Position numbers and translations under genes: made by a program. Shown piece after piece: positions 32,474-48,606 of a stretch of DNA of 64,000 nucleotides (within the stretch, counting starts at the first letter, position 1; each line of letters opens with the position of its first letter). This DNA comes from Bacteroidota bacterium (GTDB taxonomy: Bacteria; Bacteroidota; Ignavibacteria; Ignavibacteriales; Ignavibacteriaceae), in contig JAKBMG010000175.1 of the NCBI GenBank assembly GCA_021831685.1, forward strand, positions 1 through 64,000, in the 5' to 3' direction. Under the pieces are notes generated by a model that searched no databases, had not been told where the DNA came from, and worked only from the letters and a program-made list of their open reading frames with translations.

Positions 32474-35461
32474 TCACATATCAATACTTTTCAAAAGTTC
32501 ATTCGCAATATTGGAGCTCTCAAGCCGCATTATGCTTTCTTCAGCGCTTCCGAAGCTTAAAAGATTAATACTACCATACCAAACAATCTTTTGATCAATC
32601 ACTGCAAATTTCTGGTGAATATTTGATTTGAATAATAAGTTGATACCTTCCTTTTTTAATATATCAAGAGCATGCTTCAAAAGTAATCTATCCTTTTCTC
32701 TGTAATCTTCTAGTGGTCTCGTTAAAATAATTACCTTAACATTATTACTTACCGTTATTCTTAAATGTTGAAGTAATTGTTCAGACCGTCTTTTTGAAAC
32801 AAAAGGGCTGACAATGAAAATTTCTTTCTGTGCGCTCACAATATCGATGCTATAAACCGGCAAGAAGCTATCCTTGTTGAAAATAAAATTAATCAATTCC
32901 GCTGTCCCGCCTTGCAGAATTTCTCCTTTCGCTTTATAACCAAACGAAGCGTAACTGTTGAGCCGTTTGTTGTACATCTTCTCAAGCATTCTAACATAAA
33001 TATCGACATAATCATAAACTTGAACTTCATTTTTACTTTCATATAACCTATTAAGCCTGCCGGCATATTGCTGCAAAGTGCCTCTCCACGAAATAGGCAT
33101 CGTCAGAAATAAAGTATCAAGCCGCGGCTCGTCAAAACCTTCACCAATATATTTACCGGTTGCAACCAACGTTAACGGCTTTCCCGGCGGTGTCTCAGAA
33201 ATTCTTTTTAATGTTTCTCTTGTTTCTTTAACCCCGGTTTTCCCGGTGAGAGTTATTACATCCGGAATTTTCTCATTCAACATTTTTGAAAGAAGTTCAA
33301 CATGAGCGGTTCTTTCTGTTAAGACAAGAGAGCTTCTGCCTCTTTCATAATTTTTTATTACATCACCGGCAATAAGCTGGTTGCGCATTTCATTCACCGT
33401 TAATTCAGAATACAGTTCTTGTATTGTTGGTGTTTTCTCATCTTTATCTACCGGCACTCTGTAGCTTGTAAATCTTGGAATAACAAAGTGTTCAAAGGGT
33501 CTTTGTCCGGCTTGCGCTTTTGCCTCAACTTTGAATCTTACAGGTCCGCAATGCATAAAAATAATTGGATGATGCCCGTCCAATCTTACCGGTGTTGCGG
33601 TTAATCCATAAACATATTTTGCGTGGGCATTTTTTAGAATCAGTTCAAAGCTAAAAGCCGGAACATGATGGCACTCATCGACAATCACCATTCCGTAATT
33701 TTTAATAAAATCTTTTATTTCATTTCCTCTGTATAATGACTGTATTATAGCAACATCAATAATACCGGTTAAATTTTCTTTCCCGCCGCCGAGTTGTCCG
33801 ATTAAAGACTGCCGCTTCTGCCTTCCCCGCTTTTTCTCAAGCGCCGGTAATTCTTCCTTAATATTTAGAAACTCAGATAGCCTTGTAATCCATTGCGTCA
33901 GCAACTGCTGCCTGTGGACCAGCACAAGTGTATTGGTTTTCCTTTCTGCAATTAGATTAGCTGCTACTACCGTTTTCCCGAATGCTGTGGCAGCGGCTAA
34001 TACTCCGTTATCATATTTTATTAGCTCATTTATTGCTGTAAGCTGATCGTTCCTTAACTTCCCGTTAAACTCAACATTAATATTTCTACCATGATTAGTT
34101 TTATCCGTGATTTCTATATCCATATCAAATTCAGTAAATAAATTCTTTACATCTGCTTCGCAGCCTCTCGGCAGACAAAGATATTCTTCTGTCTCATCAG
34201 AGCAAGAAATAATTCTCGGCTTGTTATAAGTAGTCATTCGCAACGCTTGAGCTTTGTAAAACTCCGGGTTCTTAAATGCAGCTAACCGTTTCAAAACATT
34301 AAGCGCCTTTTGAGAAACGCCATTCTTCAATACATAAATCATATTTGCTTTTACAAGATTTATTTTATCCGGGAAGTCGTTTTTTGTCAAATGAACTGTC
34401 TGAGATTTCTCCCAAGGCTTAGGTGTTTCTTCATCGTCTTTTCTCAACGCTCCTAATTCGTTTCCATAACAGTCTGAGGAAAGTTTTGTTGTTAATGTTT
34501 CAATTGAATCTTTCGGTAATTTTTTTATTGAGCTTAAGAATTCCCACTGGTCTGTATACGGTATGAAATTCTCATCGATAAAAACGCTGTTGCCTTTTTT
34601 TCTTGCCGTCATTTGAAGCGGAAGCGCAATCAAATTTCCAAAGCCGCCTTTGGGCATTGTATCTTGATTAGGGAAAAATCTGTCGTAAGATTTGAATTTG
34701 ATTTCATGTCTTTTGTTCATTGAATAGGTAAGTAAAGAGGTCCCAAATTTCCTTGCTAAAGCGGCAGATATTGGCTCATCAAAGAAGAACCAAGCATGAG
34801 CACCGTTCCCGGAGCGGGAGCGTTCAACCGCAAAAGGAATATCAAACTCCTTGCATACATTTCTCAATAAGGAAATATCTTTTTCCCAACCATCATCATC
34901 AAAATCAATAGCTAAGAAGTAACAAGTTTCATCAAGCTGCATCGGATAAATGCCTGCAATTATGTTTCCCCTTAAATGTTCGTTAACAACTTTTTCATTT
35001 AGAATTTGAAATGATTTATTAGCGCATTCCGAGCATTTTATTTTCGGCTTGCTGCATATCCCGGGTTTCCATTCGTTAAGACAAACAGGCGAATAACCTG
35101 AAGCACCATTTTTATTTTGCCATCTTTTAGCGAAGACATCTTCTCTTCCCTTAAAGAGCGACATAAATAATCTTATCTTAGAATCGGGACTGCTGTTTTG
35201 ATTAATTGAAGAAATATTTTCATGATGTGTTTCTGCCTCTGATGAATTTATAAATCGATACGAAGCAGTTGGTGTCTCAGTTGCAATTATTGTTTCATCA
35301 AGATGAGAGGGGATTTGCCTATCCAGCAGGAAGCTGTCAAGCTGCTCTTTCAGCTTTTTATTTTCCGCTTCTAGTCTTTCGTTTTCGATAAGCAGAGACT
35401 GAATCTTATCAAGCAGAGACATATTCTTATTTTTGTCGTCAGTCATTGTTGTGCTTTTCAA
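32474..35461 (-). CDS. Archaeo-eukaryotic primase + SF2 DEAD/DEAH helicase + PLD nuclease (TOTE-conflict-type)
   Basis: Coiled-coil N-terminus; zinc cluster 'C..GICSKPKIKCSEC'; AEP motifs 'FLAIDFDDD' and 'RSRSGNGAHAWFFFD'; helicase 'AATAFGKTVVAANLI', 'VDECHH', 'YAGRLNR'; PLD 'HQKFAVIDQKIVWYGSINLL'. Confidence 0.85.
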   Translation of the reverse strand: MKSTTMTDDKNKNMSLLDKIQSLLIENERLEAENKKLKEQLDSFLLDRQIPSHLDETIIATETPTASYRFINSSEAETHHENISSINQNSSPDSKIRLFMSLFKGREDVFAKRWQNKNGASGYSPVCLNEWKPGICSKPKIKCSECANKSFQILNEKVVNEHLRGNIIAGIYPMQLDETCYFLAIDFDDDGWEKDISLLRNVCKEFDIPFAVERSRSGNGAHAWFFFDEPISAALARKFGTSLLTYSMNKRHEIKFKSYDRFFPNQDTMPKGGFGNLIALPLQMTARKKGNSVFIDENFIPYTDQWEFLSSIKKLPKDSIETLTTKLSSDCYGNELGALRKDDEETPKPWEKSQTVHLTKNDFPDKINLVKANMIYVLKNGVSQKALNVLKRLAAFKNPEFYKAQALRMTTYNKPRIISCSDETEEYLCLPRGCEADVKNLFTEFDMDIEITDKTNHGRNINVEFNGKLRNDQLTAINELIKYDNGVLAAATAFGKTVVAANLIAERKTNTLVLVHRQQLLTQWITRLSEFLNIKEELPALEKKRGRQKRQSLIGQLGGGKENLTGIIDVAIIQSLYRGNEIKDFIKNYGMVIVDECHHVPAFSFELILKNAHAKYVYGLTATPVRLDGHHPIIFMHCGPVRFKVEAKAQAGQRPFEHFVIPRFTSYRVPVDKDEKTPTIQELYSELTVNEMRNQLIAGDVIKNYERGRSSLVLTERTAHVELLSKMLNEKIPDVITLTGKTGVKETRETLKRISETPPGKPLTLVATGKYIGEGFDEPRLDTLFLTMPISWRGTLQQYAGRLNRLYESKNEVQVYDYVDIYVRMLEKMYNKRLNSYASFGYKAKGEILQGGTAELINFIFNKDSFLPVYSIDIVSAQKEIFIVSPFVSKRRSEQLLQHLRITVSNNVKVIILTRPLEDYREKDRLLLKHALDILKKEGINLLFKSNIHQKFAVIDQKIVWYGSINLLSFGSAEESIMRLESSNIANELLKSIDM

Positions 35462-35672
35462 TTCAATATGAAAATAGAAAGAAATAGGGTAAGAAGAAAT
35501 ATTAGGGGGTAAGGATTTTGTATTTTAAGTTATTGCGCCTTTCAACTCTTTTCGGTAAGTTAAATATTGAAAGTGCTAAGTTATTGTAAAAGAATATTGC
35601 TATTAAGGTGTCACTTAATCACGAAATTGATTGTTAGAGAAAGTGATAGTAATTAGGAAAGTAAGTGGTAAA

Positions 35673-35906
35673 ATGAAAAATTTGTTAAGCCGAATAACCA
35701 TTGACCCCGAAATATGTCATGGTAAACCTACTATCCGGGGACTAAGATATCCAGTTGAAAACATGCTTGAATTAATGGCATCGGGAATGAGTGTGGATGA
35801 ACTGCTTAAAGACTACCCGGATCTGGAAAAGGAAGATTTTTTAGCTTGTTTAGAATACGCAGCTAAACTTTCACATGTAAAAAGCATTTATAAAACAGCC
35901 TCGTGA
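35673..35906 (+). CDS. DUF433 family antitoxin-like protein
   Basis: 'RITIDPEICHGKPTIRGLRYPVENMLELMASGMSVDELLKDYPDLEKEDFLACLEYA'; ORF track opens at 35631. Confidence 0.8.
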   Translation: MKNLLSRITIDPEICHGKPTIRGLRYPVENMLELMASGMSVDELLKDYPDLEKEDFLACLEYAAKLSHVKSIYKTAS

Positions 35907-36115
35907 AATTTTTAATTGATGCGCAACTACCAAAATCATTATCAGAGTTTTTGAAGCACAAAGGCTTCAATTCAATCCACACTTTAGAACTTCCCGGTAA
36001 AAATAGAACTAAAGATATTCAAATTATCCAAGAAGCAATAAAAGAAAACCGAGTTGTCATTAGTAAGGACATAGAAGAGACATTGCTGAGCGAGATTAAA
36101 ATAAGTTTGTATTAG
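35903..36115 (+). CDS. DUF5615 PIN-like toxin, probably C-terminally truncated
   Basis: 'MKFLIDAQLPKSLSEFLKHKGFNSIHTLELP...RVVISKD' then the sequence diverges and ends early; ATGA-type overlap with DUF433. Confidence 0.65.
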   Translation: MKFLIDAQLPKSLSEFLKHKGFNSIHTLELPGKNRTKDIQIIQEAIKENRVVISKDIEETLLSEIKISLY

Positions 36116-36704: not shown

Positions 36705-36739
36705 AAGAGCAGCGACTTACTACAAGATGAATGAAGGAA

Positions 36740-38998
36740 AGGGAGCGGCACAACCACTGATGACGGCAGCCCCAATTCTTATACAGGCACGCTAAATAAC
36801 TCCCCCACCTGGGTCAGCGGAGCCTTCATACCTGGCGGCGAAAGCTATGTCGGTGGTCTTGTTGGGTCAAGTCGTGGGATTGTAAACAACTGCTACAGCA
36901 CAGGAAATGTCAGTGGTGTTGGTGCCGCCGGACTTATGGGAGAAAATGCTGCGTGGACAGTAAGTAACTGCTATAGCACAGGAAGTGTAAGCGGCAGCAG
37001 TGTGGGAGGACTTTTAGCATTTACTATGCTACAGCCAGCAACTGCTTTTGGGATACACAAACTTCCGGTCAATCGAGAAGCGCAGCAGGCACAGGCGTGA
37101 GTGACTCTGCCATGAAGGCACAAGCTACTTTTACAAACGCCGGCTAGGACTTCACAAATGTTTGGTTCATGGCAGTTACTCACAACAGCGGCTATCCTGC
37201 TCTAATAGGTATGACACAATCCAACGCTTACGCCACCGTTTCTTCCCCAACAAACATCACCGGCATATCGGCAACATTGAGCGGGAGTGTGAGCCCGAGT
37301 AATGTAAGCACAACTGTGCGGTTCTTGTATGGAACAACTTCAGGTGTCTATACCAACAGTGTAAAAGCATCTCTAGCAACAGTGAGCGGAAGTAATACCA
37401 GCTCTGTCTCGGCTACGTTAACGGGTCTTGCCCAGACTACGACGTATTACTATTGCATATCAGGAGCGAGCGCTTCGGCAGGGTATTTTGTCAGCAATGA
37501 GAAGAGCTTTACGACTCCGTATGCCAATGCAGGAAACACGCTGAAGCTTAATCCTACAAATTCCACTTATCTTAGGACATCTCTCGTAACGACTGCAACT
37601 TCGAACTACACGATTGAAGGTTGGGTAAAATGGAATGGAGCAACCCCCGGCTCAAGTCAGCAGTTGTTTTACAATGGGAACTCAGCGTCATCCGGATATG
37701 GAGTAATTCTTCCTTACAATCACTCATACAAAGTCTCGTTCATCGCTGGCGGCAAGGGATATGATTACTCTAATTTCATATTGCCGCCCGGGCAGTGGAC
37801 TCATGTTGCACTAACATGTGACGCCAGCAATAATTTTAAAGTCTACGTAAACGGTGATAGCGTTGTGGGCGGAACAATCGCTGTTAACACGCCTGCCGGA
37901 AATTTCCATGTCGGAGGTTACGGTGGTGAATACTTTAACGGCTCAATGGAAGCGATGGATGGATTACTTCGACAGCTCCCGTTGGTGAGGCATCGTCTGC
38001 CGACACGATGAACTTTACAAGCGGAACAGCAAACTTAGGAACGGTATCGCTGACGATGGGCACACCGTTCAGCTTACCGCTACCGAGATCGAAGCTGAGC
38101 CGAATTCATCGCCTACCGGGGCTGGAGTTTTGCTGAGCAGTTGTTACTGGCAGATTACTCCCTTTGGCACACCGGGAACATTTTCGGCGAATCTGACATT
38201 TACCATTCCATCATGGTTCACCGACGCCGCAGCAGGAACGTACACTCTCTACCATAGGGAAGGCAATTCCGACGGAAGCTGGACGGCAACGGTTTCGGGT
38301 GCAGCTAACATTACCTCGACAACAATCACTTTCAACGGCGTTACGTCATTCAGCCAGTTTACGATTGGCTCGTCGGACAATGCGCTGCCTGTGGAGCTTG
38401 CATCATTCACGGCAACGGCAGAAAGGAATTCGGTGCAGTTGCAATGGAAGACAGCGACGGAGGTGAATTGCTACGGATTCGAGGTGAAGCGGTCAGCGAT
38501 CAGCAGTCAGCTTTCAGCCAATGCATCGGCTGACAGCCGAACGCTGATAGCTGGACAAAGATTAGATTTGTGAAGGGAAGCGGGAACAGCAACACACCGA
38601 AGAATTATTCCTTTGTTGATAACAATCCTTCAAGCGGCACAGTTGAATATAGACTAAAGCAGATTGACAATGATGGAAACTTTAAATACTCGCAGATAGT
38701 CACCGTGCACTCACTTCCAACAAAGTTTGAGTTGTACCAGAACTATCCCAATCCGTTTAATCCGGGTACCACGATACGGTTCGATTTGAAGGAGGCATCG
38801 AACGTAACGCTGGAGATTTACAATGTGCTTGGGCAAAGGGTGGAATATTGGAATTATGGGATGATGACTGGAGGAAGATACAACGAAATGTTTGACATGA
38901 GCAGGTTTGCGAGTGGAGTATACTTTTACCGGTTGACCACCGCCGGGAAAGACGGCGAGAAGTATGTTTCGATAAAGAAGCTGCTTTTTATGAAATAA
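36740..38998 (+). pseudogene. Decayed large T9SS-secreted protein with GLUG repeats, LamG-like domain and C-terminal sorting domain
   Basis: GLUG-like 'YVGGLVGSSRGIVNNCYSTGNVSG' and 'VSNCYSTGSVSGSSVGGLLA', frameshifts, TAG in 'NAG*DFTNVW', LamG 'YTIEGWVKWNG...WTHVALTCD', tail 'FELYQNYPNPFNPGTTIRFDL'. Confidence 0.75.
38493..38555. repeat. Palindromic insert in the T9SS pseudogene
   Basis: tcagcgatcagcagtcagctttcagcc-aatgcatc-ggctgacagccgaacgctgatagctgga, ~27-nt imperfect inverted arms. Confidence 0.65.
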
Positions 38999-39330: not shown

Positions 39331-42093
39331 TCAAAATCCCGGCAGCTTAAACTTCATAGTTACTTCGCCGGTTTCTTTATTTACTGTTATTCCTTTTCCT
39401 TCCGTAATTAATTCTTTGCCTGTAGCCATTTTAAATATGCCGCTTAAGAATTGCATCCCTTGATTTAAAGTCACTTCAATTTCCTGCGGTTCCGGTGTAT
39501 GCTGTTTTTCTGAATCATCTTTAGTCGAAATTATTTTCGAAGTAGCTGCGCCCTCATTGCCTGATTCAATTTTTTCATCAAGCAGTACAGTCTCCTCAAT
39601 CAACTCACCGGCATTCTCAGCTTCATTTACTATTTCTTCTTTTGTTTCTTCAAAGGACTCATCCTGCACAATTTCAGAAGCTTCGACAGGCTGAATCATT
39701 TTTTGAACTTGCTCAATAAATGTCGATCTTCCCTTAGCTGCAAAATCAACTTCCTCCGTTAAGTTTGCATTATTTAATACTGCATTGAACAAGGCTTCTT
39801 TAACAACAATACCGTTTGCGATATTATGTTCTATGCTGTTTTGTGCAACCATATTTATAGCGGTTAATTTTGGACTTACTTGCCCGATGCGGTTTATACG
39901 CCCGATCCTTTGGTTCTTTTTTGCGGGATTCCACGGCAAATCAAAATTGATAACCGTATCGGCGAACTGCAAATTTAATCCCGTGCCGCCTGCTTCGGTC
40001 GAAAGAAATACAAGCGTGTCCGGGTTATTTGCAAATTCGTCTATCAAAAAGCTTCTTTTATTTACCGGCACATCTCCCGATAGAGTAACGTATTGAATGC
40101 CGTTTGTCTTCAGCATCTTACCGATTAAATGAAGCATCGTTTTCCATTCGGAAAAGATTATTACTTTCCTTTTTCGATTTTTAATATTCAGCTTTTCTAA
40201 AAGTATAGTTTCCAATTCATCTAATTTGGGAGAGTAATTTGTTTCCTTGTCAATAAGAAAAGTTGAGTCGCATACCATCCTCATGCTGGTAAGGATTTGC
40301 TGGATACGCTGCATGTCGTAAAAGGTTTTGTGTTTCTTGTGCAGAATAGGAGCAAGTGATCTTGCAAGTCCGGCATGAATTTCTGCCTGCGCTGGATGAA
40401 GTACAACCGGTACCATCATTTCTTGAACGGCGGGCAGTTCTTTCAAAACATCTGCCTTCTCCCGCCTGATAACATAACCGGCTAATTTATTTTTTAGTTC
40501 TTGTAAATTAAAATAGCCGGTTACCATGTTCCTCTTGTCCTTATCGAAATAACAATGGTTCATTGAAAATTCCCACTGCGGCGCTAACACTTCGGGATCA
40601 ACAAAATTCATTATCGAATACAAGTCCAGCAAATTGTTTTCAAGCGGAGTTCCGGTAATTACTAAAGAATGTTTTTTGGGAATTGATTTTACAGCATGTG
40701 AAGTTTTCGTATCGTAGTTCTTTATTTTCTGCGCCTCATCAAGAATAATCATGTCTGGCGGATACTGATGAATGACGGTAATGTCCCTCATAACTGCTTC
40801 ATAATTTGCAATGATAAAAAACTCAGCGGCGCTTTTATAAATCTTCTGACGGTAGCTGCGGACGCCTTCAACTATAACTGCTTTTTCACCTGTAAACTTT
40901 TCTATTTCTTTTTTCCATTGATACTTTAATGATGCCGGACAAATTATCAACGCCTTGTTTAAGCCATAAATATCTTTTTTCAATAAAGCGACAGCAATTG
41001 CTTGAAGCGTTTTTCCAAGACCCATTTCATCTGCAATAATATTTCCTTTCTTAAATAAAGAAAACAAAATACTCTCCTTCTGGTAATCGAACAGCTTAGC
41101 TTTTATTTTTGAAAAGTCCGGTGTTATCTTTTCGCTAAGTTGTTTGAGCGATTGCGTATCAAAATATTTATCTATTTTTTCATTTACTTCCGGGCGGATT
41201 AAAATTGATTTAATCTCTCTCGCTTCATTTATAAACTTCAAGAATTCAGAATATCTTTCAGGCATGACGTACTGGCTGCCGTTTGGGAATCCTCCGAAGG
41301 AGTCCTTTGTGACATCCCGACTTTGTCGGGGAAAATATTTGTGAATTAAAGTGTCTACTTCCGGCTGAGGATTTCGTTCGTAAAAATATGTAATGTTATA
41401 ATCGTAATGAGGATCGCAATAGATTTCGACGAAAGGATAAACTTGATTAGTTAATGCTTTTGAGTTTTTATATTTCTTGTTCAAATAGTCCGACGCAAAA
41501 ATCAAATGCTTGCAGGTTCCAAGCTTGTTGGTCCTAAAATCGGGGCACGAGCAGTAGCCGCTGCCTTCTGCGAAATCTCTGATTGTAATTTCATAAGTTC
41601 TTCCTTCCTCTGTTTTGATTTTATGAAAGCCGTGAATATTTTCCGCAAGATGAATTTCAAATTTTTCCTTGGCGGCTTTTTCCTGTCTTTCTTTCAATAC
41701 CCGTTTTATCATTTCTTTTTTTGTGTACTTACTGCTTACAGATGACACTTTATTTTTTCCGTCGTCAAATTTAATTCTAAGCATAATAAGCGCAGCAGCA
41801 GAGTGCGGGCAGCAATCAAAATGTGAATCGCAATTACATTGAATTGACAGCTCGCCTCGCTTGAAATTAGATCTTTCGTTCGGCGAAGAAGTCTTCTTTT
41901 CAGACGGCGAAATTGTTACATGAAAATCATCAAACCGGTCTTCAACAATAAAATTAAATTTATTGCCTGACTCGCTTGTTAGAGTACACATTTCATTATC
42001 GATCAAACTTTGTCCTCTGCGAAAAACCGGTTCGGATTTAACATAATTTTCTTTGATTTCAAGTATATCTGGTACGGGAAAATCGAATTTCAT
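39331..42093 (-). CDS. SNF2/SWI2-family helicase with N-terminal SWIM zinc fingers
   Basis: SWIM-like 'CNCDSHFDCCPHSAAALIML' and 'CSCPDFRTNKLGTCKHLIFA'; 'IIADEMGLGKTLQAIAVA', 'ILDEAQKIKN', 'STEAGGTGLNLQFADTVINFDLPWNPAKKNQRIGRINRIGQ'. ORF track opens at 42141. Confidence 0.92.
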   Translation of the reverse strand: MKFDFPVPDILEIKENYVKSEPVFRRGQSLIDNEMCTLTSESGNKFNFIVEDRFDDFHVTISPSEKKTSSPNERSNFKRGELSIQCNCDSHFDCCPHSAAALIMLRIKFDDGKNKVSSVSSKYTKKEMIKRVLKERQEKAAKEKFEIHLAENIHGFHKIKTEEGRTYEITIRDFAEGSGYCSCPDFRTNKLGTCKHLIFASDYLNKKYKNSKALTNQVYPFVEIYCDPHYDYNITYFYERNPQPEVDTLIHKYFPRQSRDVTKDSFGGFPNGSQYVMPERYSEFLKFINEAREIKSILIRPEVNEKIDKYFDTQSLKQLSEKITPDFSKIKAKLFDYQKESILFSLFKKGNIIADEMGLGKTLQAIAVALLKKDIYGLNKALIICPASLKYQWKKEIEKFTGEKAVIVEGVRSYRQKIYKSAAEFFIIANYEAVMRDITVIHQYPPDMIILDEAQKIKNYDTKTSHAVKSIPKKHSLVITGTPLENNLLDLYSIMNFVDPEVLAPQWEFSMNHCYFDKDKRNMVTGYFNLQELKNKLAGYVIRREKADVLKELPAVQEMMVPVVLHPAQAEIHAGLARSLAPILHKKHKTFYDMQRIQQILTSMRMVCDSTFLIDKETNYSPKLDELETILLEKLNIKNRKRKVIIFSEWKTMLHLIGKMLKTNGIQYVTLSGDVPVNKRSFLIDEFANNPDTLVFLSTEAGGTGLNLQFADTVINFDLPWNPAKKNQRIGRINRIGQVSPKLTAINMVAQNSIEHNIANGIVVKEALFNAVLNNANLTEEVDFAAKGRSTFIEQVQKMIQPVEASEIVQDESFEETKEEIVNEAENAGELIEETVLLDEKIESGNEGAATSKIISTKDDSEKQHTPEPQEIEVTLNQGMQFLSGIFKMATGKELITEGKGITVNKETGEVTMKFKLPGF
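41286..41331. repeat. Palindromic insert within the SNF2 helicase coding sequence
   Basis: ggaatcctccgaaggagtcc (imperfect palindrome) then tcccgac-ttt-gtcggga; encodes RQSRDVTKDSFGGFPN. Confidence 0.6.
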
Positions 42094-42221
42094 ATTTGCG
42101 CCTTTGTTGAAAATAACTGATGTCTGCTTTCTGAAAGGCAAAATTAAGTCTTCAGTAATAAGTAATCAATAACGGTTGATAGAAATAATAATTACTGTTC
42201 CTCTCAAGAAATAAGGAATCA

Positions 42222-42643
42222 TTATGAAAACTCTAATTACAGATGATCATTCTGTTGCTATGGTTCCCTCGTCACCATATTTACTTACTGTATTCACGAA
42301 ATATCCATCACTCCAAGATTCTCCTCCCCACAATTGCTTCTTTACTTCTGGATGCTTTCTGAATATCTCTCTGGCTGTTATACTTTTCAATATTGTTACA
42401 TATTTGTGTCGGACTATATTTGGGAACTGAGTACAATAGAAAATGAACATGTGCTGTATCTGTACCTATTTCTAAAAAATATATCGGATAACGTTTTGTG
42501 ATTTCTAAACAAATTGCTTCTAATGTCTCATCTACTTCTTGACTAAATACTATCCTTCTATATTTTGCCGGTAGTACTATATGATATATCAAGACTGACA
42601 CATTATGTGATTTATGTATGTATTCACTTTTTGACATACACAA
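42222..42643 (-). pseudogene. Frameshifted IS200/IS605 TnpA transposase
   Basis: Frame 1 'YHIVLPAKYRRIVFS...GTDTAHVHFLLYSVPKYSPTQICNNIEK' and frame 2 'KSITAREIFRKHPEVKKQLWGGESWSDGYFVNTVSKYGDE'. Confidence 0.85.
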
Positions 42644-45422: not shown

Positions 45423-47732
45423 TCAATCAAAAAAATTAAGTTGAGTTGAGTTTACAATTTGGTCAAAGGATTGTCCTAGTAAAGTTAGTATTGAATCAGC
45501 AATTGGCTTTAATTGCTTTTCAATATAATGTTGATAATCTATGTCACTGACATCGAGTTCTATAGGAACCGGTCCGCGCTTTGTAATTATATATTCAATA
45601 TATCCGCTGCTAGTACCAATTAGCTTTGCTGCCTTTACTTGCGGCGGAATATTTTTCACATATTGTTCAACATCCTTTCTTAACCTTTTCCGGTAAACAA
45701 GTTTGTCATTGTAGAGACCTTCTAAAAGTTGATTAACAAATTTTCTTACCCATTCTATAATTTCCTCGTTGTTAAATATTTTTTTATAAAGTTCTACCTG
45801 AAAATCTTTTGCAAGACGGGTCCAATCCGAGCGGACAAACTCCATTCCAACAAATTCTAACTTTTCATTTCCATTTTCGGAAAGGAGACCAGCATATCTC
45901 TTTTTAGCGCCGCTGTCACCCCCCCGGGCTTGGGTCAAAATAAATTTGCGATAATATTTTTCATACTCAACTTCAAGATAAGATTTGACCTTGAAATCTT
46001 TCTGTAAAGTTGCAAACCAATACTTATTAAGATCGAGTGCCAAGCTTTTACCCAATGATTCAATATTTATTCCTTCGCTATGATTCAGTTTAACGAACAA
46101 AGAATCCGTGTCACCATAAAGGACTTCATAGCCAATACTTTCAATAAAACTTTTGCTACCAAGCAAAAGCCATTGACCCGTGCCTGTAATAGCTGAAGGT
46201 AAATCCGGATGATAAAATCTACACCCGTAAGAACCCATTACCCCATAAAAACTATTCATTAATATTTTTATTGCCTGAGATAGATGAACATCTTTATTTT
46301 TTTTTGCTTCAGCGCGCTTTGTCATAAGCGTTTCTATAAAGCCGGGAAGGAAATTTTTTGTAGAAGAAAATTTTAACCCTGTTGGAGTAATGATAGTGTC
46401 AGTATCTGATAATAATCGTGATAGCGGATCAATTCTAAAAGTTTGAATAATTGATGGGTACAAACTCTTAAAATCAAGGACAATAACATTATCATATAGA
46501 CCGGGTTTTGGTTCGATAACATAACCGCCTGCGGCGTGTTGTGCTTCTTCAATGTCTTCAACATTAGGAGCTACAAAACCGGCACGATGCATATTTGGAA
46601 GAAAAAAATGATCAAATGCTGCCGTCATCATTCCAAGATGGTCAATTAAAAGACCGGATAACTTAGCACGCTTTACAGAAAGGTCTATCAATCCTGTCTT
46701 TTGGAAAATATCAGTAACAAGCACAGTGTCTTGCAAATTATATTCGGCAAGCTTTTTCTTATCCTCTTTAAAAAGTCGCTCAATTTCTTTAATCTTATTT
46801 TGCTCCGGTTTTATAGTTTTGCCTATACCAAGCAATTCCTTAGCTACAGTATCGAGTTTGAAATCCTCAAAAGAATAGAAAGCGGAGCGTAACGCCGGAG
46901 GCCCATCTATAACAATTCGTCCTGGCAGATATGCAAAATATCCTCCAGAATTTCTTTTCCTTAAAGTTACTTTTGTCTTACCTCTTCCAAGATTAAAAGG
47001 AATTTCGTTTTCCTGAAATTTCTTTTCAAGGAACATTAAATCGAAACCAATTACATGCCAACCAATGATAATATCCGGATCGCATTCTTTGAACCATTCA
47101 AGAAAATTTTGGATAAGATCTTTTTCAGTAGGAAAAAGCTTAAGATAAGCTGGCCTTTTTTTTGTAGTATCACCTATCATGAATACAATTTTCTCATCAT
47201 CCTTACGCGAGGTAACGTGGCAAGCAATTGAATAGAGCGAATTATTTTGCGATCCGGTTTCTATATCTAAAGAAACAATTTTGAACTGAGGATTAGTTTC
47301 GGCTGGTTTAACTTTGGGATTAAGAAAAGAAATAATTTTCCCTCTAGTAATTGTTTCACCGCTCAGATTCACCTGAGCGTTTATAAAGCGTTCCATCAAA
47401 AATCTTCTAGCGGGATCAACATCCGTTTCAAAAGTTAAAATGTTTCTTGATTTGCAAAATTCAGCTGCATTTTTCAATTCTCTCATTGTATTAAAATAAA
47501 GGACATCCGCATCAACGCCGGAAAAGGATTTTAACTTGAGGTTTTTTCTGAAATATCGAACTGTGAGCTCTTCCAGAGATGCTTTGCGGTCGATAAAGAA
47601 AACCGGTTTAACAGTACTAATAATGAATTCCACCGGAATAGAATCATCAGAAATTCCATAGAATTGCAATATGTTTTTCCCCCGTACATCCTGCCATTCA
47701 CTAGTCAAAATAAAAACATTTATGCTTCCCAT
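45423..47732 (-). CDS. polB: Family B DNA polymerase (Pol II-like)
   Basis: Exo 'VSLDIETGS', 'IIIGWHVIGFDLMFL'; polymerase 'VLDFKSLYPSIIQTF', 'ILMNSFYGVMGS', 'VLYGDTDSLFV'. Start possibly 47732 rather than 47765. Confidence 0.92.
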   Translation of the reverse strand: MGSINVFILTSEWQDVRGKNILQFYGISDDSIPVEFIISTVKPVFFIDRKASLEELTVRYFRKNLKLKSFSGVDADVLYFNTMRELKNAAEFCKSRNILTFETDVDPARRFLMERFINAQVNLSGETITRGKIISFLNPKVKPAETNPQFKIVSLDIETGSQNNSLYSIACHVTSRKDDEKIVFMIGDTTKKRPAYLKLFPTEKDLIQNFLEWFKECDPDIIIGWHVIGFDLMFLEKKFQENEIPFNLGRGKTKVTLRKRNSGGYFAYLPGRIVIDGPPALRSAFYSFEDFKLDTVAKELLGIGKTIKPEQNKIKEIERLFKEDKKKLAEYNLQDTVLVTDIFQKTGLIDLSVKRAKLSGLLIDHLGMMTAAFDHFFLPNMHRAGFVAPNVEDIEEAQHAAGGYVIEPKPGLYDNVIVLDFKSLYPSIIQTFRIDPLSRLLSDTDTIITPTGLKFSSTKNFLPGFIETLMTKRAEAKKNKDVHLSQAIKILMNSFYGVMGSYGCRFYHPDLPSAITGTGQWLLLGSKSFIESIGYEVLYGDTDSLFVKLNHSEGINIESLGKSLALDLNKYWFATLQKDFKVKSYLEVEYEKYYRKFILTQARGGDSGAKKRYAGLLSENGNEKLEFVGMEFVRSDWTRLAKDFQVELYKKIFNNEEIIEWVRKFVNQLLEGLYNDKLVYRKRLRKDVEQYVKNIPPQVKAAKLIGTSSGYIEYIITKRGPVPIELDVSDIDYQHYIEKQLKPIADSILTLLGQSFDQIVNSTQLNFFD

Positions 47733-47736
47733 ATCA

Positions 47737-48606
47737 TTATTTATCTTTGACCATTTTTGTGCCATTAAAGTTTATCAGTTGCTCATTGGTTTTTAGTATT
47801 GAGCCGTTTATTAAATTATAAATTGCAAATAATTCTAATGAAAAAGGAAAGTACCCAAGGTATCCCAAGATAGGCATCTCAAAAATATGGATGATATTCA
47901 CACCCGGTAAAAAATAAATCCACTTAGGGTAGGAAAAATAATTCCACATTTCCCAAAAGAAGGCACAAATCAGTACGCCTATGATTAATGATAGCAACGG
48001 TTTCCAATTACCTGCAGATAAGTAATTAAACAAATTTTTGTTCCCGAGAAGTATGTTTACCGGTTCGATAATTAAATACAAGGAGACCCATATTAAGAAA
48101 TAGAAATAATGAGGCAGCAAAATAATTAAAGACAGCATAACCAAACCGAGTATTAAAAGTGAGTATGAATATTTTTTATCCGGCTTTATTTGTTTAGTAA
48201 TTTTAATTTTGTCAACCCAATCAAAAGTTGCAACTAATTCTGCCGATTCAAAAACAGCAGGCATTACCGTTGAGAAACATAAGGAGGCCAACAAAACAAA
48301 TTGGAAGTCTGAGAAATATTGTCTTCCTTCATAATACCAATTTTGGGTAAAATAATTGAGGGCTTCAAAGAGCCACCAAACAGGGATAGAAATAATAAAT
48401 AGTACAATAAATTTATTCTTATTTCTACTCAAAATTGAGCTTCCTTTGGCAGAATACACTAGAGCATCGACCAGAAGAATAAATCCAAGCCAAAGCGGGA
48501 AGAAAGCCCATTGCGTTCTTAAGCCCGGTACTGACCAGTTCAAAGTCCAAAACAATATCACTAAAAAGGCACCGGCAAAACCTCTGACAGGTAAAATCCT
48601 TTTCAT
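47737..48606 (-). CDS. Polytopic membrane protein of unknown function
   Basis: 289 aa, multiple TMs; overlaps the polB start region. Confidence 0.65.
   Translation of the reverse strand: MKRILPVRGFAGAFLVILFWTLNWSVPGLRTQWAFFPLWLGFILLVDALVYSAKGSSILSRNKNKFIVLFIISIPVWWLFEALNYFTQNWYYEGRQYFSDFQFVLLASLCFSTVMPAVFESAELVATFDWVDKIKITKQIKPDKKYSYSLLILGLVMLSLIILLPHYFYFLIWVSLYLIIEPVNILLGNKNLFNYLSAGNWKPLLSLIIGVLICAFFWEMWNYFSYPKWIYFLPGVNIIHIFEMPILGYLGYFPFSLELFAIYNLINGSILKTNEQLINFNGTKMVKDK

Follow-up and report, generated by a model that had tools for sequence, protein, structure and literature searches.

Related systems

TOTE systems are named after their components, TPR, OB, TBP and Effector (PMC12458937, 2025), and TOTE conflict systems are credited to Aravind/Iyer 2022 as cited in that paper. 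A Pfam archaeo-eukaryotic primase (AEP) domain, AEP-TOTE (PF22548), takes its name from them. CAPP_A includes a helicase type, and CAPP homologues outside CRISPR most often combine a Prim-Pol with a helicase (Zabrady et al., 2021; PMC8211822). Z1568-like proteins are also listed among the AEP families (PMC5862659). No mechanism or phenotype for the AEP-TOTE helicase family was found in the literature searched.

The gene described here lies in a 64,000-nucleotide stretch of Ignavibacteriaceae DNA, the whole of which is termed the window. The preliminary description of this DNA compared its product with TOTE-type proteins. The comparison stands in that the protein carries the TOTE-named domain, together with the SF2 helicase core found in other PF22548 proteins, and has the effector-type part of TOTE (AEP and nuclease domains, by Pfam). 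It fails at the level of the system. TBP is missing from the window's own genome (99.8% complete) and from all 346 phylum genomes sampled, with archaeal controls positive, which rules out a true TOTE system. Nor was a TPR or OB (cold-shock) gene found among the scanned window neighbours (Pfam) or near PLD-type relatives (best 25 of 158 families, 144 neighbours). The protein is thus a stand-alone AEP-helicase. PF22548 proteins bear the PGAP name "TOTE conflict system archaeo-eukaryotic primase domain-containing protein", and RefSeq labels E. coli copies in this way.

The best match in the literature is the non-CRISPR Prim-Pol plus helicase homologues of CAPP. As in CAPP_A-helicase, the Prim-Pol precedes the helicase, and the fold matches Marinitoga CAPP Prim-Pol 7nqd with a TM score of 0.78 by target (Foldseek, AlphaFold model). 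The window locus differs in having an added PLD tail and no nearby cas genes or array, and the protein scores 119.2 bits against the cut-off of 200 of the NCBIfam CAPP model NF040561; the PADLOC PrimPol model gives 314 bits. No CRISPR-like array occurs in 27-43 kb of the window and no cas1 was found on its contig (C53), the genome's Cas1 being confined to C154, C217 and C16. A CRISPR link of the locus is rejected on these grounds. Two reverse transcriptase-Cas1 fusion-type ORFs are present elsewhere in the genome, L148 (G000:C217) and L149 (G000:C16), and the latter adjoins an apparent group II intron-type reverse transcriptase on the opposite strand.

E. coli homologues, one of them located near ureD, share the AEP-helicase core and about 46% AEP identity with the window protein, Z1568 itself being outside the comparison. 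These E. coli copies (about 790 aa) have neither a PLD tail nor any other nuclease tail. Among known proteins, the closest counterparts of the window protein appear to be the CAPP_A-helicase proteins outside CRISPR and the Z1568-like proteins of E. coli.

DISARM, Dpd and Zorya offer comparable parts, namely an SNF2 motor, an SF2 helicase and a PLD nuclease. The window locus, however, has neither DrmA/B nor a DNA methyltransferase, and its SNF2 protein scores far under every cut-off (ZorD 160/1500, DrmD 132/950, DpdE 103/500), so it is rejected as any of the three. The ATP-dependent restriction endonuclease SauUSI (7clg) is a fold match to the helicase part. SauUSI joins PLD and SF2 in one chain, in which the PLD is N-terminal and a reader of modified bases is also present. 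It has no AEP, in contrast to the window protein.

Domain content and conservation

The gene is a single open frame on the minus strand; the plus strand of the same interval is stop-rich. The likelier start is the ATG at residue 6 of the longest frame, giving 990 aa. Residue numbers from the 44-sequence alignment of relatives are in ATG numbering, which is TTG numbering minus 5. Every motif quoted in the preliminary description, which gave no strand, was located in the minus-strand translation. Its domain order, with AEP-TOTE, SF2 and PLD domains in one chain, was borne out by Pfam, the alignment and Foldseek. Judged from sequence, the domain and motif content is far beyond chance.

Table 1. 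Features of the AEP-helicase-PLD gene and its surroundings in the window
Feature	Coordinates	Strand	Basis or remark
AEP-XPB-like helicase-PLD gene	32474..35461	minus	995 aa from TTG 35461; ATG 35446 likelier start
N-terminal coiled-coil helix	35321..35443	minus	Lone long helix, residues 2-42 (ATG numbering), AlphaFold model
AEP-TOTE (Prim-Pol) domain	34496..35179	minus	PF22548 351.9 bits; fold match CAPP Prim-Pol 7nqd
Cys4 cluster CX8CX6CX2C within AEP domain	35024..35083	minus	Four Cys invariant 44/44
AEP motifs A (DFD) and B (SGNGAH)	34796..34906	minus	D181, D183, S212, G215, H217 invariant 44/44
Putative DRD-like segment ahead of helicase core	34022..34366	minus	phmmer XPBII match from residue 419; folded in model
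SF2 helicase core, XPB/UvsW-like (GKT, DECHH, RxD, QYAGRLNR)	32945..34060	minus	ResIII/Helicase_C; Foldseek UvsW, XPB-Bax1
PLD nuclease domain, single HKD (HQKFAVID) + GSxN	32486..32842	minus	PF13091 46.1 bits
SWIM-SNF2 ATPase, proposed partner	39331..42141	minus	SWIM match above Pfam cut-off; recurrent linkage
DUF433 antitoxin-like gene, divergent neighbour	35631..35906	plus	PF04255 90.7 bits; G021 copy 100% identical
Shortened DUF5615 (PIN-like toxin) ORF	35903..36115	plus	G021 copy 117 aa
IS200-type Y1 transposase ORF	42308-42643		111 aa

The search for the TOTE AEP domain that the preliminary description had proposed gave a match to PF22548 (residues 95-322, 2.1e-105) above its gathering cut-off of 27 bits. 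The cysteines of the cluster are residues 122, 131, 138 and 141, and D255 of the AEP domain is likewise invariant (44/44). Also invariant in all 44 sequences are the helicase GKT and DECHH motifs and Q793, R797 and R800. Pfam places ResIII at residues 468-626 and PLDc_2 at residues 874-992, and the PLD tail has both HxKx4D and GSxN (as GSIN). The HKD residues are less constant, with H in 33/36, K in 32/36 and D in 36/36.

The AlphaFold model (pLDDT 81.9, pTM 0.72) displays an N-terminal helix of ~40 residues, a disordered linker and then the folded domains. Foldseek matches were T4 UvsW, XPB-Bax1, TFIIH XPB, RadD, CAPP and SauUSI, with UvsW and XPB-Bax1 on top; TM scores normalised to the query are low, since any one target spans just part of the protein. 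Searches of PDB chains with phmmer pointed the same way, to XPBII (residues 419-654) and Marinitoga CAPP Prim-Pol. A six-sequence AEP profile matched CAPP only (1e-24), and the PLD tail alone had no significant match among PDB sequences.

Tail types among relatives

A tree was built from the AEP and helicase columns only, omitting the truncated row L105. On this tree the PLD tail corresponds to one change, DUF559/Vsr-like tails form one clade (DUF559 confirmed in L125) and tail-less proteins require two changes. The AEP/helicase/PLD architecture is one of three tail types (PLD, DUF559, none) of a single family. Six PLD tails (L098, L103, L110, L111, L123, L128) have lost the HKD His and/or Lys, in about four changes on the tree, the long branch L110 being uncertain. 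Their C-termini read YQK, YNK, HQR or YQR in place of the HKD residues, and these tails are predicted to be catalytically dead. As the cutting part of relatives may be DUF559, absent or HKD-dead, the function that is conserved would reside in the AEP-motor core, and the nuclease would be an add-on, by sequence comparison an exchangeable or dispensable module on a constant core. HKD loss in several PLD-tailed relatives also implies that some family members work without cutting.

A divergent AEP-TOTE type of 1166-1190 aa, with no Pfam-recognised nuclease, is found at L019:4636-9311 and L020:1689-6325. In both loci it is followed by a related-looking gene of ~300 aa that has no Pfam match, and the two genes possibly form a unit.

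Distribution and transfer

A gene kept as syntenic core in the clade had been named at the outset as the observation that would speak against defence. The window gene is instead accessory, not core: AEP-TOTE is found in 6/13 genomes of the genus, 10/80 of the family, 18/164 of the order and 27/346 sampled from the phylum. At least 576 confirmed relatives were detected in many phyla by genome scan. The phyla are intermixed on the core tree, which suggests that the AEP-helicase family has spread horizontally.

A scan of the same kind over the 2.9 million viral contigs of IMG/VR yielded 4 loci, and no phage genome has a match spanning at least 80% of the AEP domain; phage origin of the gene is thus unsupported. 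About 113 plasmids have an AEP match. Among complete E. coli genomes, 1723 of 5426 carry an AEP-TOTE gene or remnant; AEP coverage reaches 80% or more in 683 of these 1723, and many of the E. coli copies are partial.

Neighbours of relatives

The locus had also been read as part of a defence island. Accessory status and a defence-type setting in relatives support this reading, for which distribution and neighbours are the entire support. Within the family, BrxL and PglZ lie some 5-10 kb from the AEP-helicase gene in L014 (G068), AbiEii and HipA adjoin it in L018, and AbiGi in L012. Families seen repeatedly, though in low numbers, in a set of 144 genes close to PLD-type loci include PDC-S01, Fic, AbiEi/ii, Schlafen AlbA_2 and type III methylase, and HEPN/MNT also occurs near relatives. 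Neighbours are varied, with many ordinary genes, and no one conserved partner gene was found across all PLD-type loci. The defence association drawn from these neighbours is suggestive.

The evidence from E. coli is sharper than the neighbour counts. There, copies occupy the cargo slot of Int-AlpA-YfjI-Gp2 satellites. Behind this fixed backbone, the slot of strain M11 holds the AEP-helicase followed by ShosT/ShosA (170/343 bits); in strain W46 only a remnant of the AEP-helicase is left there, and Mokosh MkoA/MkoB (2206/503 bits) comes next. Both ShosTA and Mokosh have been described in the literature as systems that act against phages.

The window neighbourhood and linkage to SNF2

In the window, the SNF2 helicase gene was confirmed at 3.9 kb upstream of the primase gene in the direction of transcription. 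The term mobile debris, applied earlier to the surroundings, is a fair one in view of the Y1 transposase ORF, the shortened DUF5615 ORF and the broken surface-protein ORFs that lie between the SNF2 and primase genes (36720-38998; repeat-bearing, LamG-like, with a T9SS sorting tail). The nearest right-hand genes are metabolic (DsrE, methyltransferase, OsmC). A family B DNA polymerase II (45423-47765) adjoins an M1-like peptidase and SNF2, an order kept in G014 (L052) at 94-96%.

The survey for co-occurring SNF2 that had been suggested shows that the linkage recurs. SNF2 orthologues are rare in the order (10/164 genomes), and five of the ten genomes with SNF2 also have AEP-TOTE on the same contig within about 4 kb: G000 (the window's genome), G021 and G020 of genus g1, G126 (g34) and G416 (g174). 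In G416, SNF2 comes after TOTE, separated from it by 326 bp; the order of the two genes varies across genomes. A sixth SNF2 genome, G454, retains two fragments of the TOTE C-terminus immediately upstream of SNF2. The probability of such overlap by chance, with kinship ignored, is p = 0.0016 by genome and 0.035 by genus. Toxin-antitoxin pairs (DUF433/DUF5615; HEPN/MNT) are found between the two genes. The G020 AEP-TOTE gene (L013:9210-12212) has a lone in-frame stop before DECHH in a frame that is otherwise intact.

With AroC as the marker, identities in G020 are 87% for the marker, 76% for SNF2 and 69% for TOTE, and in G021 83%, 92% and 93.5%, the last over the whole length of the protein. SNF2 and TOTE deviate from the marker in the same way, which fits joint transfer of the pair, judged from few genomes, mostly metagenome bins. 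SNF2 occurs without TOTE in G071, G433 and G435, at a contig end in the last two, so that, in place of a two-gene system, a hot spot for accessory genes used by both is a reasonable explanation. Outside Ignavibacteriales, among the loci examined, SNF2 linkage was seen only in L113 (32% identity, convergent). A ClpB-type AAA+ gene lies near SNF2 in three genomes that belong to a different family within the order (L163:5350-7968, L164:2819-5437, L165:5636-8254).

Possible functions

The window protein is read here, with slight preference over all other readings together, as a stand-alone, horizontally spread accessory AEP-helicase that is probably an enzyme acting against invading phage or plasmid DNA. 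Intact catalytic residues, the XPB/UvsW and CAPP folds, patchy spread, defence-type neighbours and near-absence from phages suggest such a role. Counted against it are the varied neighbours, the HKD losses and the metabolic right-hand genes in the window. AEPs often serve mobile-element replication, which also counts against it.

A mechanism can be proposed, its order of events modelled on XPB/UvsW, CAPP and HKD-nuclease biology. The N-terminal coiled coil would oligomerise the protein, and the XPB/UvsW-like motor would engage and open forked or branched invader DNA (replication or recombination intermediates). The Cys4-AEP domain may then prime or copy the exposed single strand, and the PLD domain would cut the exposed DNA as a dimer, since each domain has a single HKD.

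A helper in replication or repair, which would assist the host or a mobile element by repriming or fork processing and not attack invaders, is a possible but minority reading. An AEP joined to an XPB/UvsW/RadD-like motor is made of repair-type parts, and the plasmid copies and the integrase-bearing satellites of E. coli fit such a helper. Yet in other E. coli strains the Int-AlpA-YfjI-Gp2 backbone is kept although its slot contains Mokosh or a remnant, the gene is missing from most relatives, and no replication, partition or integrase gene adjoins it in the window. That the gene is decaying cargo without a present role in the host seems quite unlikely. The DUF5615 ORF next to a DUF433 gene identical to that of G021 is shortened, and TOTE is damaged or smaller elsewhere, with an in-frame stop in G020, 636 aa in G126 and fragments in G454; the window copy, however, is full-length, retains all catalytic residues and closely resembles that of G021. 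Highly improbable is a CAPP that helps CRISPR spacer acquisition. The nearest solved structure, the PADLOC score and the helicase type of CAPP_A would agree with it, but the NF040561 score, the missing array and Cas1, and the prevalence of the helicase type among non-CRISPR homologues (PMC8211822) do not, and with no cas genes on the contig the role is largely refuted for this locus.

The anti-invader reading may be extended, tentatively and with considerable doubt, to a two-gene system of Ignavibacteriales. The SWIM-SNF2 protein would remodel or strip protein-bound DNA and its putative AEP-XPB-PLD partner would prime and cut, a DISARM-like division of labour that lacks methylation and DrmA/B and is distinguished by the primase.

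Significance

The family is very common, as its frequency in E. coli attests, and is named a conflict protein in RefSeq. The TOTE label does not match the actual context of the window gene. The pairing with SNF2 is potentially a new element of an otherwise known, mechanistically open family. The constant AEP-motor core, the add-on nuclease, the slot shared with ShosTA and Mokosh, and a candidate SNF2 partner in one order provide handles for testing what these proteins do.
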